Of a DNA stretch of 64,000 nt, positions 29,993 through 42,054 are shown one piece after another. Source of the DNA: a virus; IMG/VR virus record IMGVR_UViG_3300023202_000383, positions 1 to 64,000 of that record, one strand, 5' to 3'. Position numbers and translations under genes: made by a program. A model generated the notes under the pieces. That model did no database searches, was not told the DNA's origin, and was given only the letters and a program-made list of their open reading frames with translations. The first letter of the stretch is position 1; every line of letters begins with the position of its first letter.

Positions 29993-30634
29993 ATGATTAC
30001 CGGCATCACACAATTCGGGTTGGAGGGGCGTGTAGCAACGGTGGATCACGACCCGGCTATCGTGTCGACCGATGTCCCCGCAGGTTCGATTATCCTGTCG
30101 ACCTCCACAGGATTGCTCTACCGAAAACTCACCGGCGGCAGCAACACGGATGTGTTGCCGATGACCGCTTCCAGTCAGCCGTTCGATTGGGACAGCGGGG
30201 CGTCGGCGGTCGCGGCGGTCGTCGCGGCCGGGATGCTGTCGCTCGAATTGCTTGCCGATACCGACTCGAAGGTAGTCGGCGGCGACGTTGCCCCGCTGCA
30301 CGTCGACCTCGATCAGGCGTTGGAGCTTGACGTCAAGATCGTCACCCTCAGCTTGGGCGACGCGTCGGCCGACGCGCACCTGCGGCTGACGGCCCGCTAC
30401 GTGGGGTTGGGCGAGGCGGCGGACAAGACGCCCGACGAGACGATCGACCACATCTTTGAAGTCGCCAACGTAGATAAGTGCGTGCACGCCGTGACGTTCA
30501 CACTGGACCCGTCGCTTATCTCCCCCGAAGACCTGCTAAACCTGGAGCTGTCGCGGCTGGGCACGTCAGCGAGTGACGTGTTTACCGGCTCCATCGGCGT
30601 TGCCGAGAGGTCGCTGCTGAGGTTCTTTAACTGA
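29993..30634 (+). CDS. Tail-fibre/virion-like protein (GC-rich module)
   Basis: 213 aa. GC-rich, Asp/Ala/Leu-rich, with beta-strand repeats (VHAVTFTLDPSLISPEDLL) typical of phage fibre or decoration proteins. Starts one base after the preceding stop; the next gene begins in the last base of its stop. No specific receptor-binding fold recognised. Confidence 0.6.
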   Translation: MITGITQFGLEGRVATVDHDPAIVSTDVPAGSIILSTSTGLLYRKLTGGSNTDVLPMTASSQPFDWDSGASAVAAVVAAGMLSLELLADTDSKVVGGDVAPLHVDLDQALELDVKIVTLSLGDASADAHLRLTARYVGLGEAADKTPDETIDHIFEVANVDKCVHAVTFTLDPSLISPEDLLNLELSRLGTSASDVFTGSIGVAERSLLRFFN

Positions 30635-31164
30635 TGGCAAGCACGTACGAACTGATACTGTTCCGCGAGGAGACCCGAGACGACGGGAAGGTGGCGTTGC
30701 TGCGTATCCCGTTGGTGGCCGGTGCGGGGATCGACCTCGACGCGGTGATCGGGGAGGTATCCGCCGGTAGCGGTGTGAGCGTGCAGGAGGGATACGCCGA
30801 GAGCGAAGGGACCAGTTCGACGACCAGCACCAACTTTCAGCAAAAGCTCCGCGCCAGCTTGACGGGTCTAGACGCCGGTACGTATGAGGTGGCGTGGTCT
30901 TGTGAGGTGTTGCCCGGCAAAAACAATCTGGCTGCCCGCGTGCGGGTTCAAGTGGATGACACGACGACGCTAAACAGCCCTGACCCGGTCCTCAATCGAG
31001 ACAATAGCGGGGGCAACGTGAAGGGCTGGATGCCTCTCAGTGGGTTCCGTCAATTGGCATTGAGCGCCGGGGATCATGACTTCGACATCGACTTTGCTTC
31101 ACCTCAGAACGGAAAGTCAGTAGATATCCGGTTTGCGCGTATCAAAATAGCGAGGACAAATTAA
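30634..31164 (+). CDS. Tail-fibre distal/virion-like protein (GC-rich module)
   Basis: 176 aa. Serine/threonine-rich start, then a beta-sandwich-like sequence (AGTYEVAWSCEVLPG, DHDFDIDFASP, VDIRFARIKIA) of the kind seen in small carbohydrate-binding fibre heads. Overlaps the preceding gene by one base and is followed immediately by a GTG-start gene. Confidence 0.55.
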   Translation: MASTYELILFREETRDDGKVALLRIPLVAGAGIDLDAVIGEVSAGSGVSVQEGYAESEGTSSTTSTNFQQKLRASLTGLDAGTYEVAWSCEVLPGKNNLAARVRVQVDDTTTLNSPDPVLNRDNSGGNVKGWMPLSGFRQLALSAGDHDFDIDFASPQNGKSVDIRFARIKIARTN

Positions 31165-32106
31165 GTGGCCGAGCAAGCATACACGTACAGCATCGCCAGC
31201 GACTTCCCGTCGGGCGCGGTCAACACGCAGAAGCTGCACGACGAGGTCGTGGCCGACACGGCGATCACGACGCAGCTCGACCGCATCGACACCGACGGCG
31301 ACGGCTTGTCAATCGTGTTTCAGGCGGCGCTGTCGGCGGCGGAGAAGACGGCGCTGGACGGCGACACGACCGGACCGGCCGGGGGGCTGATCGCGCAGCA
31401 CGACAACAGCGCGTCCGCCCCCGACTACGGGAAGATGCAGATCGACGGGATCTCCCCGGACGCCAACGGCTCGCTGCCGCAGGCCCCGATCATCTCCACG
31501 CCGGGCCACCGGCTCAACGACCGCGACGTGCTGGTGCGGGTGGGCGAGTTCGACAACCCGTTCGAGGACCTGCGGGTCAACCCCGACGACAACAAGGAAG
31601 TGGCGTGGGGCGAGGTCACGTGCGACCCGGCCGACACCGATCCGGCGAACAAGACCGGGGTATTCAAGCTCGACGGCAACGGCGACTGGGTCCGCTGCAC
31701 CGACCAGACCGACGCGGCCGCCAACGCCGGGCTCACGGTCCTGGAGTACCAGGCCCGGCAGGGCGGCGTGGCCGGGGGCGATGCGCTCAAGTACGACGTG
31801 CGGGGCGGGACGCTGTGGGTCGACTCCAACGTGCCGGACGACGGCGACCGCTGGTCGCACCGCGTCTATTCGGTCGGTGCCCCGGACCTGTCGGCCGTCC
31901 TCGGCGGCCGGGTGCCGTTCTTCGACGGTTACCTGTTTCCCTATCGCAACAACTGGATGCAGACGCTCAATCCCGTGGCGTTCCCGATGGATCCGTCGGC
32001 GTCGGCGGCGGCGAGCATCGTCCGCGTGTGGTTCTATTACAAGGCGGGCACGGCGTACGAGCACGTGCTGCGGTTCCACCTGTACCGACCGACCGGAAGC
32101 TGGTAG
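31165..32106 (+). CDS. Tail-fibre-like protein (GC-rich module, GTG start)
   Basis: 313 aa from a GTG directly after the preceding stop. YTYSIASDFPSGAVNTQKLHDEV at the start resembles the virion-attachment repeat found in fibre proteins of siphoviruses and myoviruses, and the C-terminus is a jelly-roll-like beta domain. The most GC-rich gene in the window. It probably determines host binding (inference). Confidence 0.6.
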   Translation: MAEQAYTYSIASDFPSGAVNTQKLHDEVVADTAITTQLDRIDTDGDGLSIVFQAALSAAEKTALDGDTTGPAGGLIAQHDNSASAPDYGKMQIDGISPDANGSLPQAPIISTPGHRLNDRDVLVRVGEFDNPFEDLRVNPDDNKEVAWGEVTCDPADTDPANKTGVFKLDGNGDWVRCTDQTDAAANAGLTVLEYQARQGGVAGGDALKYDVRGGTLWVDSNVPDDGDRWSHRVYSVGAPDLSAVLGGRVPFFDGYLFPYRNNWMQTLNPVAFPMDPSASAAASIVRVWFYYKAGTAYEHVLRFHLYRPTGSW

Positions 32107-33529: not shown

Positions 33530-33702
33530 AAGACGTCGGCAAAGCCAAACTGGAATCAGAGAAAGCTTTAACTGAGTATCTAAAATGCCAGCAAGAACTG
33601 CTGGTAATGATCAATAAACAAATGGATCTGGGAAGAATCTACGCTGAGAAGAGAGCCGAATATTTGGCTTTGAAAGAAGATAATGAGCCAGGAATTGATT
33701 AA
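33526..33702 (+). CDS. Small helical protein, 58 aa (GTG start)
   Basis: A GTG at 33526 overlaps the upstream TGA (GTGA). The frame runs 58 codons: a charged amphipathic helix rich in Lys, Glu and Leu (KAKLESEKALTEYLKCQQE). It ends overlapping the convergent endonuclease stop by four bases. No family recognised, but coupling and codon usage support it. Confidence 0.5.
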   Translation: MKDVGKAKLESEKALTEYLKCQQELLVMINKQMDLGRIYAEKRAEYLALKEDNEPGID

Positions 33703-35327
33703 GGTTTCAATATAAATTTATAATGTCCAGCATCCCACAGTCTTCTATATTTATTATTAAACATATTTTCGGCCTCGGTAAGACGCGAGTCGAAATTTTC
33801 TAGTAATTTTGATAATTTGTGTTTTTGAAAGTGTTGGCGAGAATACAATATCGATGTGTTGCCGTCTTTATAATATTTATAATTTGGCTTAGTTAAACCG
33901 CATGGTTTGAATCCTAATTTTTTATATAAATTTCCTGTCGAATATCTTGCGTCTGCATATGTTAAAATTGATTTTGGGTCATGTAATGCTATAAAATGAT
34001 TTAGTAGTTTTCCTGCTCCCCCGATAGCTGTTGAACCTATAGCTTGTGCGTATCTTATTATTTCCCATTTATATTTATGGTGCTTGGCAAAAGACATGCA
34101 TGCGACTAATTCTCCATTATATGTTAATCCAATTCTTACCGATGCATCCCGCGATCCATATATATGGTTTTCAGTCATAAATGAATCGTAATCTTTTGTG
34201 TTCAACGATATTATTTTACATTTTCTGGCGTATAATTTTGATGAATACCCAAGTTTATGATTTATTATTGATTTGACTATATTTTGTTTGTTTGACCATT
34301 CGTCCTCGTTTATTTGCAGAAGTTGTATATTGTTTTCTACGCATCTAGTATGTTTAGCTTGATGTTTAAATCTTTCGTCTTTTGATTCAGTATGGTTGTA
34401 TGAATGGTAATATAACCCATTATATTCGATAGCTACGTTATGATTTGGCAGATAGATATCGATTTCTAATGGATATATTGTCTTTCTATCGTTAATAATA
34501 TATTCAGTATTTATCGATTTTATATATTCTATTATTTCTTGGTGTGGTTTAGAAATCGAGTTAGAGCATTTAGGGCATCCGTGTCCGTTTAAATGATTAC
34601 TTACTGTTTGGGAAAAATTGCCGTGTATGATACATGTTATTGTGATTGGTTCCATGTACCCGCTGTAATTGGATTTGTCATATGAATATTTGTCGCCGTG
34701 GATCGATATTGCTCTATTTATTATATCTTCTGTTGTAGGTGTGTTTATTGCACATTTAGGGCAACCGTGGCCTTCGAGGTGCCTTCTGGTTAATTGTTTA
34801 AATTTGCCATGTTTCGGGCATTTTATTATTATGTGACTTCGATATGATTTATATATCGAATCGCTATAATCATATTTGTTATTGTGTAATTTTGATGATT
34901 TATTTATAAAATCGTCAATTGTATTACTTAAATTTTTTATTCCGCATAATTTGCACCCATACTTTCCGTAGATGTGTGATTTTGGTGTTTGTTCGAATTC
35001 GCCGTGTTCTGGGCATATTATTGTGATTTTTGTATAGCTATTGACATACTCAGATTTACTATAATCATACTTATCGCCGTGCACTAATGTTGCTTTTTCT
35101 ATAAATTTATTTAGTGGCAATTTAAGATTTTGTTTTTGTTGTTGCCTAAAACATTTTTTGCATCTTGCGCCTTTTTTGTGATTTCTAGCGCGTTGTCTAA
35201 ACTCTCCGTGTTCCGGGCATATTATTGTGACGCGTCCGCTCAATTCAATTTCTGTAACCTTTGAATAGTCATACTTGTTATTGTGTATCAGGGATGATTC
35301 ATGTATAAAGCGTTGTAATTTATTCAT
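33699..35327 (-). CDS. Hef-like homing endonuclease (DUF723 repeats, EDxHD/Vsr-like nuclease, acyltransferase-like C-terminus)
   Basis: About 542 aa from the ATG at 35327. Four or five tandem DUF723-type units (HGDKYDYSK ... CPEHGEF ... H..G.GCPKC) form the DNA-binding half. LEIDIYLPNHNVAIEYNGLYYH is an EDxHD/Vsr-like nuclease core. The C-terminal 150 residues (SFMTENHIYG ... TYADARYSTGNLYKKLGF) are an acyltransferase-like domain, ending with the signature FQKHKLSKLL ... WDAGHYKF tail. It is convergent with small genes and divergent from the polymerase gene, consistent with a free-standing mobile nuclease next to its target. Confidence 0.85.
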   Translation of the reverse strand: MNKLQRFIHESSLIHNNKYDYSKVTEIELSGRVTIICPEHGEFRQRARNHKKGARCKKCFRQQQKQNLKLPLNKFIEKATLVHGDKYDYSKSEYVNSYTKITIICPEHGEFEQTPKSHIYGKYGCKLCGIKNLSNTIDDFINKSSKLHNNKYDYSDSIYKSYRSHIIIKCPKHGKFKQLTRRHLEGHGCPKCAINTPTTEDIINRAISIHGDKYSYDKSNYSGYMEPITITCIIHGNFSQTVSNHLNGHGCPKCSNSISKPHQEIIEYIKSINTEYIINDRKTIYPLEIDIYLPNHNVAIEYNGLYYHSYNHTESKDERFKHQAKHTRCVENNIQLLQINEDEWSNKQNIVKSIINHKLGYSSKLYARKCKIISLNTKDYDSFMTENHIYGSRDASVRIGLTYNGELVACMSFAKHHKYKWEIIRYAQAIGSTAIGGAGKLLNHFIALHDPKSILTYADARYSTGNLYKKLGFKPCGLTKPNYKYYKDGNTSILYSRQHFQKHKLSKLLENFDSRLTEAENMFNNKYRRLWDAGHYKFILKP

Positions 35328-35385
35328 AATAAAATATCTTTGATTACAGATAGATCCTCTGCATTGCGTGTTGTATTTTATATAC

Positions 35386-36747
35386 ATGGTTGACATAATG
35401 AAATATAATGGTCCTACAGACTTTGCTCATCTTCATGTCCATACTTTATATAGTACGCTTGATGGGGTTCAATCTCCAGAAGAATTGTTTTCTACGTGCA
35501 AAGAAAGAGGATGGAGTGCGTTAGCCGTAACCGAGCATGGGACATTGGCATCAGTCCCAGACAATTATGCGGCTGCAAAAGAATACGGCGTAAAGTATAT
35601 AGTTGCTTGCGAAATTTATTACAATGATTATGAACCGACTAGGCAAGATCTTGTTAAAGAAGATGTTAAAATTCGCAAGCTAAAAGAAACCGACCCTAAT
35701 TTTTATTATAAAATGTCTAGAAATAGGCATTTAACAGTCCTTGCTAAAAACGATAAGGGTGTGGAGAACATAATAAAATTGACCACTCAAGCGTGGGAGA
35801 CTGGATTTTATTATAGGCCGAGGATATGGTTTGATAAATTAGATGAATATAGAGAGGGTTTATTGGTATTGAGTGGATGTTTAAATGGGCCTGTTTCTCA
35901 TGAGTTAAGACATGGGAATTTAAGGTCTGATGATATGAGAGGTGCATTAGACTATATACATAAATTCAAAGAAGTATTTGGCGATGATTATTTTGTAGAA
36001 TTGCAGATGCCTTGTCTTCCTGATTTTCCTGACCACAAAGTCTTCCGTGCATTAAATCATATAGCTAACAAGTACAATATACCGAAAGTTCTTACAAATG
36101 ACGCACATTATCTAAATCGTGAAGACTTTGAAATCCAGAAATTAATGATGGCTATATCCCAGGGTTTAACTGTTGATGATCCGAATCTGTTCCATGTAAA
36201 TAGTGATGAGCAATATCTTAAAACCAGAGCAGATCTATGGCACACATTTAAGACTGGGAAAGACGGCAAATATTGTGAATATGTGACTGATAGCGAATTT
36301 GAAGATATGTGCAACAACACATTGGTAGTTGCCGGTAAATGTGATAATTTCGAACCTGATTTGTCGTCGAAGGTTCCTACATTAGATAATGACGAGCAGA
36401 TCTTAAGAACCCTTGTGTACGATAGGCTTAAGCAAGAGGGATTCGATAAAGATGAAACTAAGTACAATATAGACAATAAAGAAGTTACTTATAGAGAACA
36501 AGCCGACATAGAATTGAATAGGTTTATTGAGAAGAATTTCGCCAGCTATTTCTTGATAACCAGAGATTTGGTGCAGTATAGTTTAGATAACGGTTGGCCT
36601 GTTGGACCGCGAGGTTCAGTTGGCGGCAGTCTAGTGTGTTATTTATTGGGCATAACCGAGTTGGATCCAATAAAATGGAATTTATCGTTTAACAGGTTTT
36701 TAAGCCCCTCGCGCGGAGGAAAGATGCTAAACATTAAGGCAGAATAG
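35386..36747 (+). CDS. dnaE: DNA polymerase III alpha, N-terminal piece (PHP domain plus start of palm)
   Basis: 453 aa. HLHVHTLYSTLDG, VTEHGT, VLSGCLNG and LTNDAHYL are intact PHP metal-binding motifs, suggesting proofreading-type or pyrophosphatase activity. The C-terminus reaches GPRGSVGGSLVCYLLG and SFNRFLSPSRGGKM, where normal DnaE continues directly into the catalytic PDxDxD. Here it reads LNIKAE and stops. An ATG at 35398 is an alternative start. The catalytic Asp pair lies in a separate gene at 39423, so polymerase activity needs assembly of the pieces. Confidence 0.88.
   Translation: MVDIMKYNGPTDFAHLHVHTLYSTLDGVQSPEELFSTCKERGWSALAVTEHGTLASVPDNYAAAKEYGVKYIVACEIYYNDYEPTRQDLVKEDVKIRKLKETDPNFYYKMSRNRHLTVLAKNDKGVENIIKLTTQAWETGFYYRPRIWFDKLDEYREGLLVLSGCLNGPVSHELRHGNLRSDDMRGALDYIHKFKEVFGDDYFVELQMPCLPDFPDHKVFRALNHIANKYNIPKVLTNDAHYLNREDFEIQKLMMAISQGLTVDDPNLFHVNSDEQYLKTRADLWHTFKTGKDGKYCEYVTDSEFEDMCNNTLVVAGKCDNFEPDLSSKVPTLDNDEQILRTLVYDRLKQEGFDKDETKYNIDNKEVTYREQADIELNRFIEKNFASYFLITRDLVQYSLDNGWPVGPRGSVGGSLVCYLLGITELDPIKWNLSFNRFLSPSRGGKMLNIKAE
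36733..36746. repeat. 14-bp direct repeat flanking the homing endonuclease, copy 1 (copy 2 at 38615-38628)
   Basis: ATTAAGGCAGAATA occurs at the end of the polymerase N-terminal gene and again just before the gene at 38629. An extended TAAACATTAAG segment is shared too (36728-36738 and 38604-38614). Removing the interval would place the ATG at 38629 immediately after the polymerase stop, as expected if the endonuclease gene is an insertion. Confidence 0.8.
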
Positions 36748-36777
36748 GTCTAATTCAGTTATAAGCAAATATATAAT

Positions 36778-38613
36778 ATGATAAATGTACAACGAAGCAA
36801 AGAAGTGTTTGGATTAAAAAGCATCAATAGGATTCCTAAAAAACAGAAAGTTATATGTAATTGTGATGTTTGTGGGGTTGAATCACGTATTACTAAGCAG
36901 CACCATTATATATGCAGCAAACGTGCTGGTTTATATAGATGTAAAGATTGTGGTAGAAAAGCCATGGCATCTAAAGTATCAAAAGCCATGATATCAAAAT
37001 GGCAAAACGACAAATACAAATCCAAGCAGATTGGCAGGACTCATAGCGATGAATTAAAGGAATATGCTAGGCAGAGAGCTATCAAATTGTGGAAAGATAA
37101 AGAATATGTGGCAAAGTATAATGCTGGGTTTGACCCGGCCAAGGCTAGAAAGAATCTAAAGGCCACCAGATCGGTTGCCAATAAAGCTGCATCGCTTGCT
37201 ATGGCTGATAAATGGCAGGAAAAAGAATATCGCAGTAAAATGTCAGATCAATCAGCTAAGCTATGGAGTAACGATTGTTATAGAAACAAAGTAATAAGTA
37301 GCCTCAAAAAACATTATTCGTCATTAGAAGTTTTAGATAGATGTTCAAATAGAGCGAAAAAATTGTGGAAGAATAATGATTATAGGGATAGGTGGTTCAA
37401 ATCATTTATGCAATCATTTGGCAATGAAAGGTTACACGAAATTTCATTACAAAGTGCCAAGAATTGGGGAGACCGAGAATATAGAGATAAAATAGAATCA
37501 CAATGGGACGATCAAAAACGTGCAGAAATGTCCGAAATATGTAAAGAATGGTGGACTGATGATAGGAGAGCTGAAGTTTCTGAGATTATGATAAGTAGGT
37601 GGTCGGACCCTAATTTTAGAAAGAAAACAATAAAAGCATTTATTGATTCATGGACTGAAGAACGCAGGCAGGCTGCTAAAGATTCATGGACTGAAGAACG
37701 CAGGCAGGCTGCGTCTGATAGATCCAGGAATTTGTGGAAAGATCCGAAATATGTTAGCAAGATGGTTGATATGATCGGGAGGCCGTCGTCTTTAGAAATT
37801 CAATTCGCCAGCTTATTGGATGATTATGGCATCGAGTACACGCAACAGTTCCATTTAGGGCCATATTTATTTGATTTTAAGGTCAACGATGTCTTAATAG
37901 AAATTAATGGCGATTATTGGCATAGATTGCCGAAGACAATATCAAAAGACAAGGCTAAAGCTACTTATGTTGAAAAACATTATCAGCAATATCAGCTTAA
38001 GTATTTATGGGAGCATGAATTTTATCAATTAGAAAAGATTAATAAATTTATTGAATTCAGTTTTGTTGGTTCTGACGTAGAAGAGGTTGATTTTTCAGAA
38101 TTAAAATTTGTTACTGATATAGATTATGATTCAATAAAATCGTTAATTGAGAAATATCATTATAAAGGAAGTATTGGTCGGGGTGGGGTGTATTATGGTG
38201 TTATATATCGTGGTAATTTGATCGCTGGGTCTGTTGTTGGGTCACCAACTAGGAATGTTGTTGGTGGCGAGTTGTTACGATTTGTTATACACCCACAGTA
38301 TCAGGTCAAGAATCTTGCATCGTGGTTTTTGAGTAGAATCTCAAAGCATGCTTTGAGAGATTATGATTTATTGTTTACATTTGCTGATCCGAATTTTAAC
38401 AATTACGGCACAATATATGAGGCTAGCGGCTGGGAATTTGCTGGCGAAACAAAATCAGATTATTGGTATGTTAGCGAAGACGGTTGGGTTATGCATAAAA
38501 AGACTTTATGGAATAGAGCAAAGAATTTATGTATGTCAGAAAGGTATTTTGCTGAGGTTTTTGGATATAATCGGGTATATGGGTTGCCAAAGAGAAAGTA
38601 TATTAAACATTAA
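36778..38613 (+). CDS. Free-standing EDxHD/Vsr-like homing endonuclease inserted in the fractured polymerase
   Basis: 611 aa. An N-terminal Cys/His zinc finger (CNCDVCG ... YRCKDCG) is followed by seven or more NUMOD-like repeats (KLWKDKEYV, KLWSNDCYR, NLWKDPKYV). The nuclease core LEIQFASLLDD ... LFDFKVNDVLIEINGDYWH is the EDxHD/Vsr-like family described for fractured phage genes. A C-terminal acyltransferase-like domain follows. It lies between the first and second polymerase pieces and is flanked by 14-bp direct repeats. It contains an internal 30-bp tandem duplication (DSWTEERRQAA twice). Confidence 0.85.
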   Translation: MINVQRSKEVFGLKSINRIPKKQKVICNCDVCGVESRITKQHHYICSKRAGLYRCKDCGRKAMASKVSKAMISKWQNDKYKSKQIGRTHSDELKEYARQRAIKLWKDKEYVAKYNAGFDPAKARKNLKATRSVANKAASLAMADKWQEKEYRSKMSDQSAKLWSNDCYRNKVISSLKKHYSSLEVLDRCSNRAKKLWKNNDYRDRWFKSFMQSFGNERLHEISLQSAKNWGDREYRDKIESQWDDQKRAEMSEICKEWWTDDRRAEVSEIMISRWSDPNFRKKTIKAFIDSWTEERRQAAKDSWTEERRQAASDRSRNLWKDPKYVSKMVDMIGRPSSLEIQFASLLDDYGIEYTQQFHLGPYLFDFKVNDVLIEINGDYWHRLPKTISKDKAKATYVEKHYQQYQLKYLWEHEFYQLEKINKFIEFSFVGSDVEEVDFSELKFVTDIDYDSIKSLIEKYHYKGSIGRGGVYYGVIYRGNLIAGSVVGSPTRNVVGGELLRFVIHPQYQVKNLASWFLSRISKHALRDYDLLFTFADPNFNNYGTIYEASGWEFAGETKSDYWYVSEDGWVMHKKTLWNRAKNLCMSERYFAEVFGYNRVYGLPKRKYIKH

Positions 38614-38628
38614 GATTAAGGCAGAATA

Positions 38629-39015
38629 ATGGATAAGAATCAGATTAAGTTAGGAATAACATCTATACAGCGATCCGTTGTTGTGTGCAATAGGTTGGGG
38701 CTGTTTGAAGCAGCGTCGGCTGCTGTTTACAGTATGATAGATGCTATAAACGCTTTGGTAGAAGGCAACGAAGAAACTGCTGCTGAAGATTGTTTCAAAT
38801 CATCGTTTCTGATATATAAGGTTTTGTACGAATCATTTTCTGAAAAGTTTGAGAAGAGATCCAGTCTAGCGGAAGACGCGGAGAAAATTCTGAAAGAATC
38901 CAATGATTGGAATGCATTTGCAAAAGCGTCCAGTAATTATATGGATGCAATAGCAGAGGTTGTACATGGAACGGAATTCGAGGCCGAATTCTTGAAATTT
39001 AAAGTTGGCTCCTGA
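38629..39015 (+). CDS. Hypothetical helical protein, 128 aa
   Basis: All-helical, Ala/Ser/Glu-rich. No family recognised. Its ATG lies directly after the second 14-bp repeat, so before the endonuclease inserted it would have followed the polymerase N-terminal gene without a gap. It overlaps the next gene by 11 bases. Possibly a polymerase accessory. Confidence 0.55.
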   Translation: MDKNQIKLGITSIQRSVVVCNRLGLFEAASAAVYSMIDAINALVEGNEETAAEDCFKSSFLIYKVLYESFSEKFEKRSSLAEDAEKILKESNDWNAFAKASSNYMDAIAEVVHGTEFEAEFLKFKVGS

Positions 39016-39496
39016 TAAAATAGACATATATTGCTTTGCTAGAGGCAAGGATAGTCCATACGCATATGGCATCCTTGTGGTCGCACATTATGGCGAAGAG
39101 TGTAAAGAGCACGAGAAATTTGGTTTCGTAGATGCGAAAACGCCTACTGAGGCCAATATCAAGATAATATTGATGGCGTTGAAGTCCGTTAAAGATGACT
39201 TTAAGGACCTCGATATCACTCTTCATGTAAGAAAATCTGCATTTTATTGTGTTGATAGAACATCTTGGGGAACCTATAGAACAAAGCCAACCAGACATCA
39301 TAAACTGATAGGTGCGGTGAGAAGTTTGTTTGACGAGCTTCCTAATGCAAGATCAAAGATGATATTCTCCAAATACCAAAAGTATGCTAAAAGATGTATA
39401 AAAAAGTCTAGGAGCATGTTTCATGCGAAACGACGCGAGTTGGGACGATATAAAGGTGATAGCGGTCAAGGAGCTCGTCCAGAAAAAGCTACCTAA
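39005..39496 (+). CDS. Possible RNase H-fold protein, 163 aa (TTG start)
   Basis: A TTG start overlaps the preceding gene. IDIYCFARGKDSPYAYGILVVAHYG ... DAKTPTEANIKIILMALKSV ... ITLHVRKSAF follows the strand-strand-helix-strand order of RNase HI, but the usual Asp and Glu catalytic residues are not in place (first Asp replaced in CFARGKD). It is probably an inactive or divergent RNase H-like fold, perhaps a polymerase partner. It overlaps the polymerase catalytic piece by 74 bases. Weak assignment. Confidence 0.4.
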   Translation: MAPDKIDIYCFARGKDSPYAYGILVVAHYGEECKEHEKFGFVDAKTPTEANIKIILMALKSVKDDFKDLDITLHVRKSAFYCVDRTSWGTYRTKPTRHHKLIGAVRSLFDELPNARSKMIFSKYQKYAKRCIKKSRSMFHAKRRELGRYKGDSGQGARPEKAT

Positions 39497-41192
39497 CGAG
39501 TATAAGTCTAGATTTAAGACAGAAATAAAAGAGATCGAAAAGCAAGGTGCCAATGCCTATTGGCAGCAGCTATATAACGAAGATCACAAATACGACACGA
39601 ATAACAATGGTTTGGTCTTGCCCTGGATATTAGGCATGACCGATGTTGATCCTTTAAAATCAGACCATCAATATACAAGGTCGACGGACTGGCCTGACAT
39701 AGATGTTGACTGCTTACCGACAGCCAGAGATAGGATCAAAGAATATGCTGCAGAGAAATATGGCAAAGACAAAGTCTGTAGCGTAGGGTTGTGGCAGACA
39801 TATAAATTTAGGTCAGCATTACAAGACTCTGTTAGAGGTGTTGGTGGTAATGTCAAAGAAATCATGGACATCACTAAGCAGTTGCCGGATGATGTTGACG
39901 ATCTGAAAGATGGTGGTTTTGCAAAGTGCACTGAATGTAAAACGAAGCATAATGAGCATAAATGCCCAGAATGTGGATCAACAGAAATAGATGGGATCAC
40001 ATTTGGGAAGGTGATAGAAGATCATGAAGAATTAAAGAAATATTATGGAGAGCATCCTAAAGAAGTCAATCTAGCCGTTAGAATGATAGGAAAAATAAAA
40101 GCGCTGGGTAAACACGCTGGCGGCCTTATTATATCTGATAGAGTGCTATTCGGAAATGTCCCTATGGGCGTTTCAAATGGCCATTGGACAAGTTTGTGGA
40201 CTGAAGGCAGGAGTACTCAATTATCTAAATTCGGGTATATTAAGTGGGATATGCTTGGCCTTAAAACTTTGCAGTATATTCATGAGTGCTGCAAATTAAT
40301 CAATAAAACCAGAAATTACAAGTTTAATGTTATTCCATGGAAAGGAATGGACCCATGGGAAAACTGTCTTGGATACTATTGGGATAATAATGGCGTAAAA
40401 CACAAAGTGAGGATGGATGACGAAAAAACCTTTGAGATGATGAACGCCATAAGGACCGATACAGTATTCCAATTCGACACGGCACTGCAGAAGAAGATTT
40501 TAGAAAATGGCGTAAACAGCTTTTATGATTTACAGATATTTAATGCAATGGGCCACCCAGGTCCGTTGCCAATGATCGATGAGTATGTAGCTCGACGTGA
40601 CAATGAGGACTACGATTGGAAGAGCGAGGAGCATCCTGATGTTGCATCGTTGCTTAAAGACACAAAGGGTATCATAGTATATCAGGAGCAATTGCAGAAG
40701 ATCTGGCAACATTTGGCTAAATTCACGGCTCCCGAAGCTGAATCTGCGAGGAAGGCTGTTGCTAAGAAATGGACGGAAAAACTAAAGCCTGTTGAGGAGA
40801 AGTGGGTAAGGGGCGCATCTAAGATAATGGGCGAGCGGCGGGCTAAAGATTACTGGGGGAAGATGAAAACTTTCGGTAGGTATGCCTTCAATAAATGCCT
40901 GGACAAAGATACTATATTAGAAGATCCTACAAATGGCAATACTATAACTGTTGAAGAGCTTTTTGAATCTAAATCGAGCTTTAAATTAGAATCTTATTGT
41001 GATGATGGATTTGTGGTCGATGACGTTGATGAGATAATCGAATGCGGTGAACAAGATATTTATGAAATAGAATTAGATAATGGGGCGATTCAGAAAGTCA
41101 CTTTGAATCATAAGTTTAGGTGCGATGATGGAAAATACTGGACAGTCAAAGAAATCATCGAAGGCAATTATTCCATCGTGGTTCGACCATAA
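39423..41192 (+). CDS. dnaE: DNA polymerase III alpha, catalytic piece fused to split-intein N-fragment
   Basis: 589 aa. Residues 91-96 are PDIDVD, the catalytic Asp pair of C-family polymerases, and KWDMLGL near residue 274 supplies the third Asp. A four-Cys zinc ribbon (CTECKTKHNEHKCPECG), unusual for DnaE, lies near residue 165. The N-terminal 80 residues (ILGMTDVDPL) repeat in degenerate form a region already encoded at the end of the first piece. The extein ends at FGRYAFNK. From Cys at 40896 the sequence is an intein N-fragment. A stop at 41190 ends the protein, so trans-splicing with the piece at 41923 is needed. Confidence 0.85.
   Translation: MRNDASWDDIKVIAVKELVQKKLPNEYKSRFKTEIKEIEKQGANAYWQQLYNEDHKYDTNNNGLVLPWILGMTDVDPLKSDHQYTRSTDWPDIDVDCLPTARDRIKEYAAEKYGKDKVCSVGLWQTYKFRSALQDSVRGVGGNVKEIMDITKQLPDDVDDLKDGGFAKCTECKTKHNEHKCPECGSTEIDGITFGKVIEDHEELKKYYGEHPKEVNLAVRMIGKIKALGKHAGGLIISDRVLFGNVPMGVSNGHWTSLWTEGRSTQLSKFGYIKWDMLGLKTLQYIHECCKLINKTRNYKFNVIPWKGMDPWENCLGYYWDNNGVKHKVRMDDEKTFEMMNAIRTDTVFQFDTALQKKILENGVNSFYDLQIFNAMGHPGPLPMIDEYVARRDNEDYDWKSEEHPDVASLLKDTKGIIVYQEQLQKIWQHLAKFTAPEAESARKAVAKKWTEKLKPVEEKWVRGASKIMGERRAKDYWGKMKTFGRYAFNKCLDKDTILEDPTNGNTITVEELFESKSSFKLESYCDDGFVVDDVDEIIECGEQDIYEIELDNGAIQKVTLNHKFRCDDGKYWTVKEIIEGNYSIVVRP
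40896..41189 (+). other. Split-intein N-fragment in DnaE (site FNK|S)
   Basis: 98 codons beginning with Cys1 (CLDKDTILED), with block B-like IYEIELDNG and VTLNHKFRCDDGKYW (TxxH form) and ending ..GNYSIVVRP before a stop. Size and ending match natural split inteins such as the gp41/NrdJ type. Its C-partner lies at 41923-42054, 730 bases downstream. Confidence 0.75.
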
Positions 41193-41942
41193 AATTATAA
41201 GCTACAATGATAATATAAAAAGTAATGATACAATAAAATCAATATGTTCAATATGCGGCGATAAAACAAGTAGAAAATTTATCGAACATAAAAGGCTGTG
41301 CAATAGGCAATCAAGATATGTTAGCTCATATCGGTGCCGGTCTTGCCTGACAAAGTCAGATGATTACAAAATCAAAATAAAAAAAGCTGAATTCGACACA
41401 GATGCTATGAGTAAGAGGTCAAAAAAGCATTGGGCTAATTTATCAAAGCACGATCGTAAGGCATTAACTAGCAAGATAACAGCCAAATTAAGAACTGATG
41501 CTGTAAGAGAAAAAATTAGCAAGTCTATAAAAGAAAAATTTGACGATCCAGATTATATTCGTAAAGTTTCGGAGGCGAGAAAGAAATATTGGGAAAATTA
41601 TGAATATAGGAAAAATAGGACGTTATCGATAGATGAATTTATAGAGAGATCTAAGTCAGTTCATGGCGATAAGTATGATTATTCGAAAGTTCAATTCGAT
41701 TCTGCCAGGAATTCTAAAGTTGATATTATATGTCCAGATCATGGTGTCTTCCGACAAAGACCGTTATGGCATTATTTGTATGGTAATGGGTGCCCAGATT
41801 GTTAGACAAGAATTCCAAAAGCACAAACTTAGCGGTAAATTAGACAATTTTGATAGTAATTTGACTGAACTACAGAATATGTTCAATAATGGATATAGGG
41901 TGGGATGCTGGACACAATAAATATGAATGGAAACGTAGCTAA
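41125..41942 (+). pseudogene. Decayed homing endonuclease between split-intein halves
   Basis: The frame 41125-41805 keeps an N-terminal zinc finger (CSICGDKT ... YRCRSC), a NUMOD-like helix array and one DUF723 unit (VHGDKYDYSK ... CPDHGVF ... GNGCPDC). It then stops. A different frame resumes with QEFQKHKLSGKLDNFDSNL, and a third with GWDAGHNKYEW, which are the C-terminal tail of the endonucleases at 33699 and 63349. The nuclease and acyltransferase domains are deleted, so this is a remnant that marks a former homing insertion in the intein. Confidence 0.7.
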
Positions 41943-42054
41943 AATAAAGTCTATAAAATATGTCGGTAAAAGAAGATCATACAACATATGTATGGAATCT
42001 AGCCAACATAATTATTTAATAAAACCATCTAGCGGGCAACCTATTCATAAAAAT
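41923..42054 (+). other. Split-intein C-fragment in DnaE
   Basis: 44 codons ending in ..PIHKN before Ser. Block F is HNYLI. Together with the N-fragment at 40896 it would total about 142 residues, a mini-intein size. The combined interval is not a multiple of three, which excludes a single contiguous intein gene. Confidence 0.72.

Follow-up and report, generated by a model that had tools for sequence, protein, structure and literature searches.

A predicted phage homing endonuclease gene followed by a stranded copy of the upstream polymerase gene end, a probable footprint of one-sided homing

We found that a predicted free-standing homing endonuclease gene of a large, uncultured double-stranded DNA phage lies directly behind DnaE-N, which encodes the N-terminal piece of a split DNA polymerase, and that a second, stranded copy of the DnaE-N 3′ end follows the endonuclease gene. 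The window (the whole stretch of DNA analyzed) covers the opening 64 kb of a virus record 256,507 bp long. Besides the repeat itself, we observed the empty junction in one related phage (L051), the same site occupied and free of repeats in another (L058), a matching arrangement in three further members of the endonuclease family (L001, L008 and L138), and an origin of the two copies from different alleles in L001. We consider it probable, with moderate confidence, that the arrangement arose by one-sided homing into the DnaE-N 3′ end, the left side being repaired by homology and the right side by end-joining. Features of the locus are collected in Table 1.

Table 1. The DnaE-N locus and its inserted endonuclease gene, in window coordinates.
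Feature	Coordinates	Strand	Remarks
DnaE-N, N-terminal piece of phage C-family DNA polymerase (PHP and first part of polymerase domain)	35398..36747	+	Pfam PHP 1.8e-40, DNA_pol3_alpha 1.7e-26; 67% identical to L051; 3′ end duplicated
Left copy TAAACATTAAGGCAGAATA, authentic DnaE-N last codons (L N I K A E)	36728..36746	+	stop TAG at 36745-36747; L051 gene ends with same MLNIKAE
Leader of inserted element (GGTCTAATTC...)	36747..36777	+	homologous by eye to L058 leader (TAGGTCCAAGTC...)
Predicted free-standing homing endonuclease gene, 611 aa	36778..38613	+	Cys-rich N-terminus; W-K-D-type helical repeats; EDxHD/Vsr-like nuclease at ~335-430; Mom-like GNAT domain at 445-583
Right copy TAAACATTAAG-ATTAAG-GCAGAATA, stranded duplicate of DnaE-N 3′ end	38604..38628	+	endonuclease stop codon (38611-38613) within
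AAGG ribosome-binding-like site and TAATG stop/start overlap, retained by right copy	38618..38631	+	feeds downstream gene; TAATG overlap also at L051 empty junction
Downstream gene, 128 aa, no assigned function	38629..39015	+	homologue between the two DnaE pieces in L051, 31% identity
DnaE-C, second polymerase piece up to split-intein junction	39423..40895	+	starts with degenerate repeat of ~80 residues, also in DnaE-N

The flanking direct repeat is as originally predicted: the 14-bp ATTAAGGCAGAATA occurs in two exact copies, at 36733-36746 and 38615-38628, and TAAACATTAAG accompanies each (36728-36738 and 38604-38614). On the left the two motifs overlap within 19 bp; on the right a 6-bp tandem duplication lies at the point where they join. 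The stop codon is TAG in the left copy and TAA in the right, the latter like the empty site. Removing the gene and one copy in silico joins GCAGAATA to ATGGATAAG and restores a TAATG stop/start overlap. Coincidence, which the original prediction had named as what would refute it, has a probability close to nil: 60-nt stretches at the gene ends share a match of 14 nt, against no more than 10 nt among 1500 random placements with the same spacing in this window, and similar anatomy with longer, diverged copies is found at L001, L008 and L138. Moreover the right copy agrees with the established end of the neighboring gene and with the ancestral junction, and a chance match is refuted by the empty site.

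That empty site was sought in related phages and found in L051, a region of IMGVR_UViG_3300005512_000001, a contig with an endonuclease relative and both polymerase pieces. DnaE-N of L051 ends in GGCTGAATAATG with no endonuclease at the site, and at its junction, GGCTGAATAATGTCT, the stop and start codons of the adjoining genes overlap as TAATG. The rebuilt window junction is of the same type, so the expectation that excision would leave an ordinary gene junction held. Since DnaE-N ends in MLNIKAE and TAATG at the empty site, the left copy in the window is the true end of DnaE-N. The gene at 38629..39015 is the ancestral neighbor of DnaE-N in this lineage. The right copy is a stranded second DnaE-N end that keeps the ribosome site and TAATG start of the next gene. 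Single-sequence pattern searches of viral contigs returned no close relatives of the downstream gene, DnaE-N or DnaE-C, and a degenerate search of viral contigs for the empty junction returned none; a search of genome contigs gave a 27% match and nothing else.

With the empty site at hand, the proposal of a recent insertion with a duplicated target can be divided. An insertion with part of its target on both sides is supported; what is repeated is the upstream gene's 3′ end, not a transposon-style duplication. Identity of the copies fits a recent date, short of proving it. The right copy could have been kept or built because the ribosome-binding site and start context of the downstream gene lie within the DnaE-N end, insertions without it being lost. 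It does carry AAGG and TAATG at proper spacing, and DnaE-N overlaps its neighbor in the empty phage; this would account for retention of the copy and not for its origin, and the relics of L001 and L138 feed no overlapping gene start, which makes such an explanation very improbable.

L058 (IMGVR_UViG_3300031565_011202) is more distant. Its DnaE-N is 53% identical to that of the window, contains an intein and ends in MLNIKL followed by TAGGTC. The same site is occupied there by an orthologous endonuclease, 50% identical to that of the window along the whole length, and the two leaders are alike (TAGGTCYAA). A polymerase end was looked for behind the L058 endonuclease and none was found. Occupation without a repeat indicates that the endonuclease belongs to the site, while the duplication is a property of the event in the window and not of the element. 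The L058 intein (L058:7230-7755) lies in frame at GPRG/C...SN/SAGG and is missing from DnaE-N of both the window and L051.

The gene downstream of the L058 endonuclease differs, and the window has an empty-type downstream junction. Such a pattern could also arise if the duplication came after insertion: a recombination event or template switch near the endonuclease 3′ end, involving one occupied and one empty phage, would have brought in the DnaE-N end and the downstream gene from the latter, with no cleavage at that step; the repeat-free occupied site in L058 favors this as well. We hold it to be unlikely, since a separate chance crossover at the exact endonuclease end would be needed in four independent target genes, which one-sided repair achieves in one step.

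The label of a free-standing homing endonuclease gene, also part of the original prediction, is borne out at the level of sequence: the gene has its own reading frame outside any intron or intein, a nuclease domain like that of 3r3p, and both an empty (L051) and an occupied (L058) relative. The nuclease region matches I-Bth0305I (PDB 3r3p) with a family profile E of 7.2e-9 (38 bits over the nuclease domain). D366, H382 and D391 are invariant in 19 members; the first residue of the motif, E, varies in the same alignment. The C-terminus matches Mom (PF25680, 6.1e-12; 8bv8, 3.1e-9; Foldseek, 2.8e-8), which is also its best fold match in an AlphaFold model (pLDDT 79, pTM 0.42). The protein thus appears to be an EDxHD (Vsr-like) nuclease fused to a Mom-like domain. 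I-Bth0305I shares the EDxHD/Vsr-like nuclease domain and is annotated as a mobile-intron protein, whereas the window protein is free-standing and has the C-terminal Mom-like domain and long helical repeats. The W-K-D helical repeats before the nuclease, which make up much of the protein there, are a putative DNA-binding part. A 36-bp unit (DSWTEERRQAAx, at 37645-37716) is present twice in this region and three times in L058, a difference that suggests change of the DNA-binding repeats by unequal recombination. A search of a known-phage collection gave one weak relative of the endonuclease, in Vibrio phage Bakedbeans (25% identity).

The nuclease and Mom-like domains were the only ones found in the insert, with no transposase or recombinase domain. 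This bears on target-site duplication, in which a staggered break or transposition-like reaction at the DnaE-N end would be filled in on both sides and duplicate 14–19 bp. The short, identical copies of the window suit that reaction. Against it, besides the missing domains, stand L058, with the same gene at the same site and no duplication, and the repeats of L001, L008 and L138, which are longer, variable in length and 86–96% identical over their aligned parts, with synonymous differences only in L001. The right end of the insert also matches sequence to the left of the 14-bp unit, which fill-in does not predict. We rejected transposition proper on the absence of a transposase, the variable repeat length and the repeat-free L058 site, and give the wider class of target-site duplications a low probability.

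We collected 139 relatives of the endonuclease in viral contigs and kept 80. A same-strand frame of at least 80 aa ends no more than 400 nt upstream in 58 of the 66 members with enough sequence, and family members follow essential phage genes, immediately past their stop codons. Judged by their tails, the upstream genes frequently come from one small set: major head protein (..DGGLYYGVI.VSNL), head protease (..EINKYFG.K), tail sheath (..EVLAAGGVV), tail tube and others, named through PHROG for L001 and L138 and by likeness of their tails for the rest. The genome of the window (G000:C1) has at least five more members, at 75587-77221, 111404-112771, 190859-191977, 243533-244768 and 247307-248413, several of them directly behind structural genes (sheath, head protease). 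Flank repeats around these five close paralogues and the opposite-strand endonuclease of the same genome did not rise above background.

In L001, L008 and L138 the 3′ end of the upstream gene is repeated downstream of the endonuclease. In L001 it is the end of the major head protein gene, GGLYYGVINVSNL and its stop codon, repeated over 37 nt at 117–153 nt behind the endonuclease. The copies differ at 8 positions in 13 codons, and 8 of 8 differences are synonymous (P ~1e-5 by neutral simulation), so the copies come from two different alleles, each a working gene end beforehand. A terminator-like hairpin stands behind the first copy and, by eye, a second behind the other. When other phages were searched for the L001 relic allele, the L001 contig itself was the sole hit. 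In L138 about 150 nt of the head protease end are repeated; the first 113 nt contain 5 substitutions, which suggest different alleles there too, and the repeat also has a 19-nt gap. In L008 the repeat is 37 nt with 4 differences. All three are longer than the window repeat.

A DNA flank score of at least 34 was reached by 3 of 68 family members and by 0 of 156 other genes on the same contigs, a modest support (estimated p ~0.03). The window repeat falls below this cut-off and was accepted on the evidence of the empty site; with it, relics are present in 4 of about 68 members tested. Other members at head-protein sites (L103, L104, L125) and head-protease sites (L094, L098, L107) had no relic. 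The translated flank hits of L100, L124 and others were dismissed as neighboring tail paralogues or low-complexity frames, and a candidate relic in L079 was unsupported at the DNA level.

The original prediction called such a repeat unusual for homing endonucleases. There is no contradiction with homing, as double-strand-break repair with homology on one side leaves such a repeat. Under one-sided homing, an endonuclease from a co-infecting phage would cleave the empty allele at the last DnaE-N codons or slightly before them. The left broken end would pair with the donor DnaE-N, and the donor DnaE-N end would be copied in together with the endonuclease gene. Homologous repair on the right would remain incomplete, and the copied strand would be joined near the end of the endonuclease gene to the broken end of the recipient. 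The joint probably used a short match between ATTAAA, at the native endonuclease gene end and also present in L058, and CTAAAC of DnaE-N, with a 6-bp templated duplication (ATTAAG) at the seam. The last codons of the recipient, its ribosome-binding site and TAATG would then stay downstream of the endonuclease as a relic, the direct repeat. Neither neighbor would lose function, since DnaE-N is completed by the donor end and the next gene still takes its start from the relic.

The observed junctions leave cleavage, cut site, repair direction and the end-joining step as parts that we infer. Synonymous-only divergence between copies agrees with one of them having come in from the donor and the other having been retained from the recipient, and not with a fresh duplication of a single target. 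At the window locus the copies span 19 bp and are identical, so a local duplication at the break would look alike; there the two-allele origin goes beyond what the window alone can demonstrate and would follow by analogy with the diverged relics. Further points count against one-sided homing. The 6-bp tandem duplication needs an extra event, relics accompany only the 4 of about 68 members noted above, and L058 gives no donor-like tract in the window: none from an L058-like phage is visible in DnaE-N, and over the full gene the window resembles L051 at least as closely as L058.

The insertion was also placed inside a fractured polymerase locus, which is true of its position. The endonuclease did not fracture the polymerase: L051 is split like the window yet lacks the endonuclease at the DnaE-N end, so the split predates the insertion. 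On the map of an intact phage DnaE, the end of DnaE-N falls at residue 424 and the beginning of DnaE-C at 342–349, an overlap of about 80 residues. In DnaE-C the overlapping stretch has degenerated, with loss of GPGRGS. Compared directly with each other, the two copies in the window show no significant similarity; the evidence for the overlap is the alignment to intact DnaE together with Pfam. The overlap is common to the window and L051 and so marks an old overlapping gene fission. DnaE-C contains a split intein at 40896-42054 (FNK/C...HKN/SHS), with a decayed endonuclease frame (41125-41805, 41663-41920) between its halves, that is absent in L051. A second endonuclease gene of another PHROG group (phrog_559/3339) lies on the opposite strand at 33699-35396 and abuts the start of DnaE-N, which is thus bracketed by two endonuclease genes. 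GC content at 30001-32000 is 64%, compared with about 38% in most of the window, and points to a recently acquired segment.

Similar arrangements are known as mobile ORFs (mORFs) with carboxy-terminal duplication from mitochondria, in atp6, atp9, cox2 and nad3 of Glomus and atp6 of Allomyces (PMC3630166). There too a free-standing endonuclease gene sits directly behind a host gene and supplies the gene end, the native 3′ end persists downstream as a relic, and the copies have diverged mostly synonymously. An upstream 3′ end present twice, the second time behind the endonuclease, marks these mORFs and was found in the window, L001, L008 and L138. The mORFs differ in being from fungal mitochondria with LAGLIDADG or GIY-YIG enzymes, whereas here the host is a phage and the enzyme an EDxHD-type nuclease with a Mom-like domain; the window repeat, at 19 bp, also has zero measurable divergence between copies. 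The probable homing footprint is a phage variant of the kind known from mitochondria. The literature searched, a partial coverage of the field, holds no description of such a 3′-end footprint in phages.

For T4 the key paper is Parker et al. (1999), cited here through a review. In this phage, repair during intron homing can rely on homology at one end and close the other through microhomology (reviewed in PMC2988022). Homing of the td intron resembles the present case in both features and in its tailed phage host; it is a laboratory system, whereas here the gene is natural and free-standing, there is no intron, and the footprint is interpreted after the fact. T4-type seg/mob and ICP1-type endonuclease genes are likewise free-standing and beside essential genes (PMC10448857); they belong to different nuclease families, and the passages searched mention no stranded 3′ ends. 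The window locus can also be set beside fractured genes with split inteins. Such genes were reportedly described with Vsr-like endonucleases from marine metagenomes by Dassa et al. in 2009. Those systems share with the window fragmented polymerase genes with endonuclease genes between the pieces, including here the split intein and its endonuclease remnant; in the window the endonuclease under study is behind a complete DnaE-N and not within an intein, and the split is older than it.

A broader and doubtful extension, which we offer tentatively, is that the EDxHD-Mom family homes in this one-sided way recurrently in large phages, striking the 3′ ends of essential genes, swapping those ends and leaving relics, while intragenic strikes would yield overlapping gene fissions, the split DnaE with its shared residues being an old product. 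If true, one-sided homing would make a short direct repeat beside a phage endonuclease gene a readable footprint of its arrival, and natural phage homing would be repairable from one side only. The ends of essential genes such as those for the major head protein and head protease would be exchanged between phages, and there would be a route to partial gene duplication and gene fission. The pattern of fungal mitochondria would thereby be linked to phages, and also to laboratory studies of illegitimate repair in T4.
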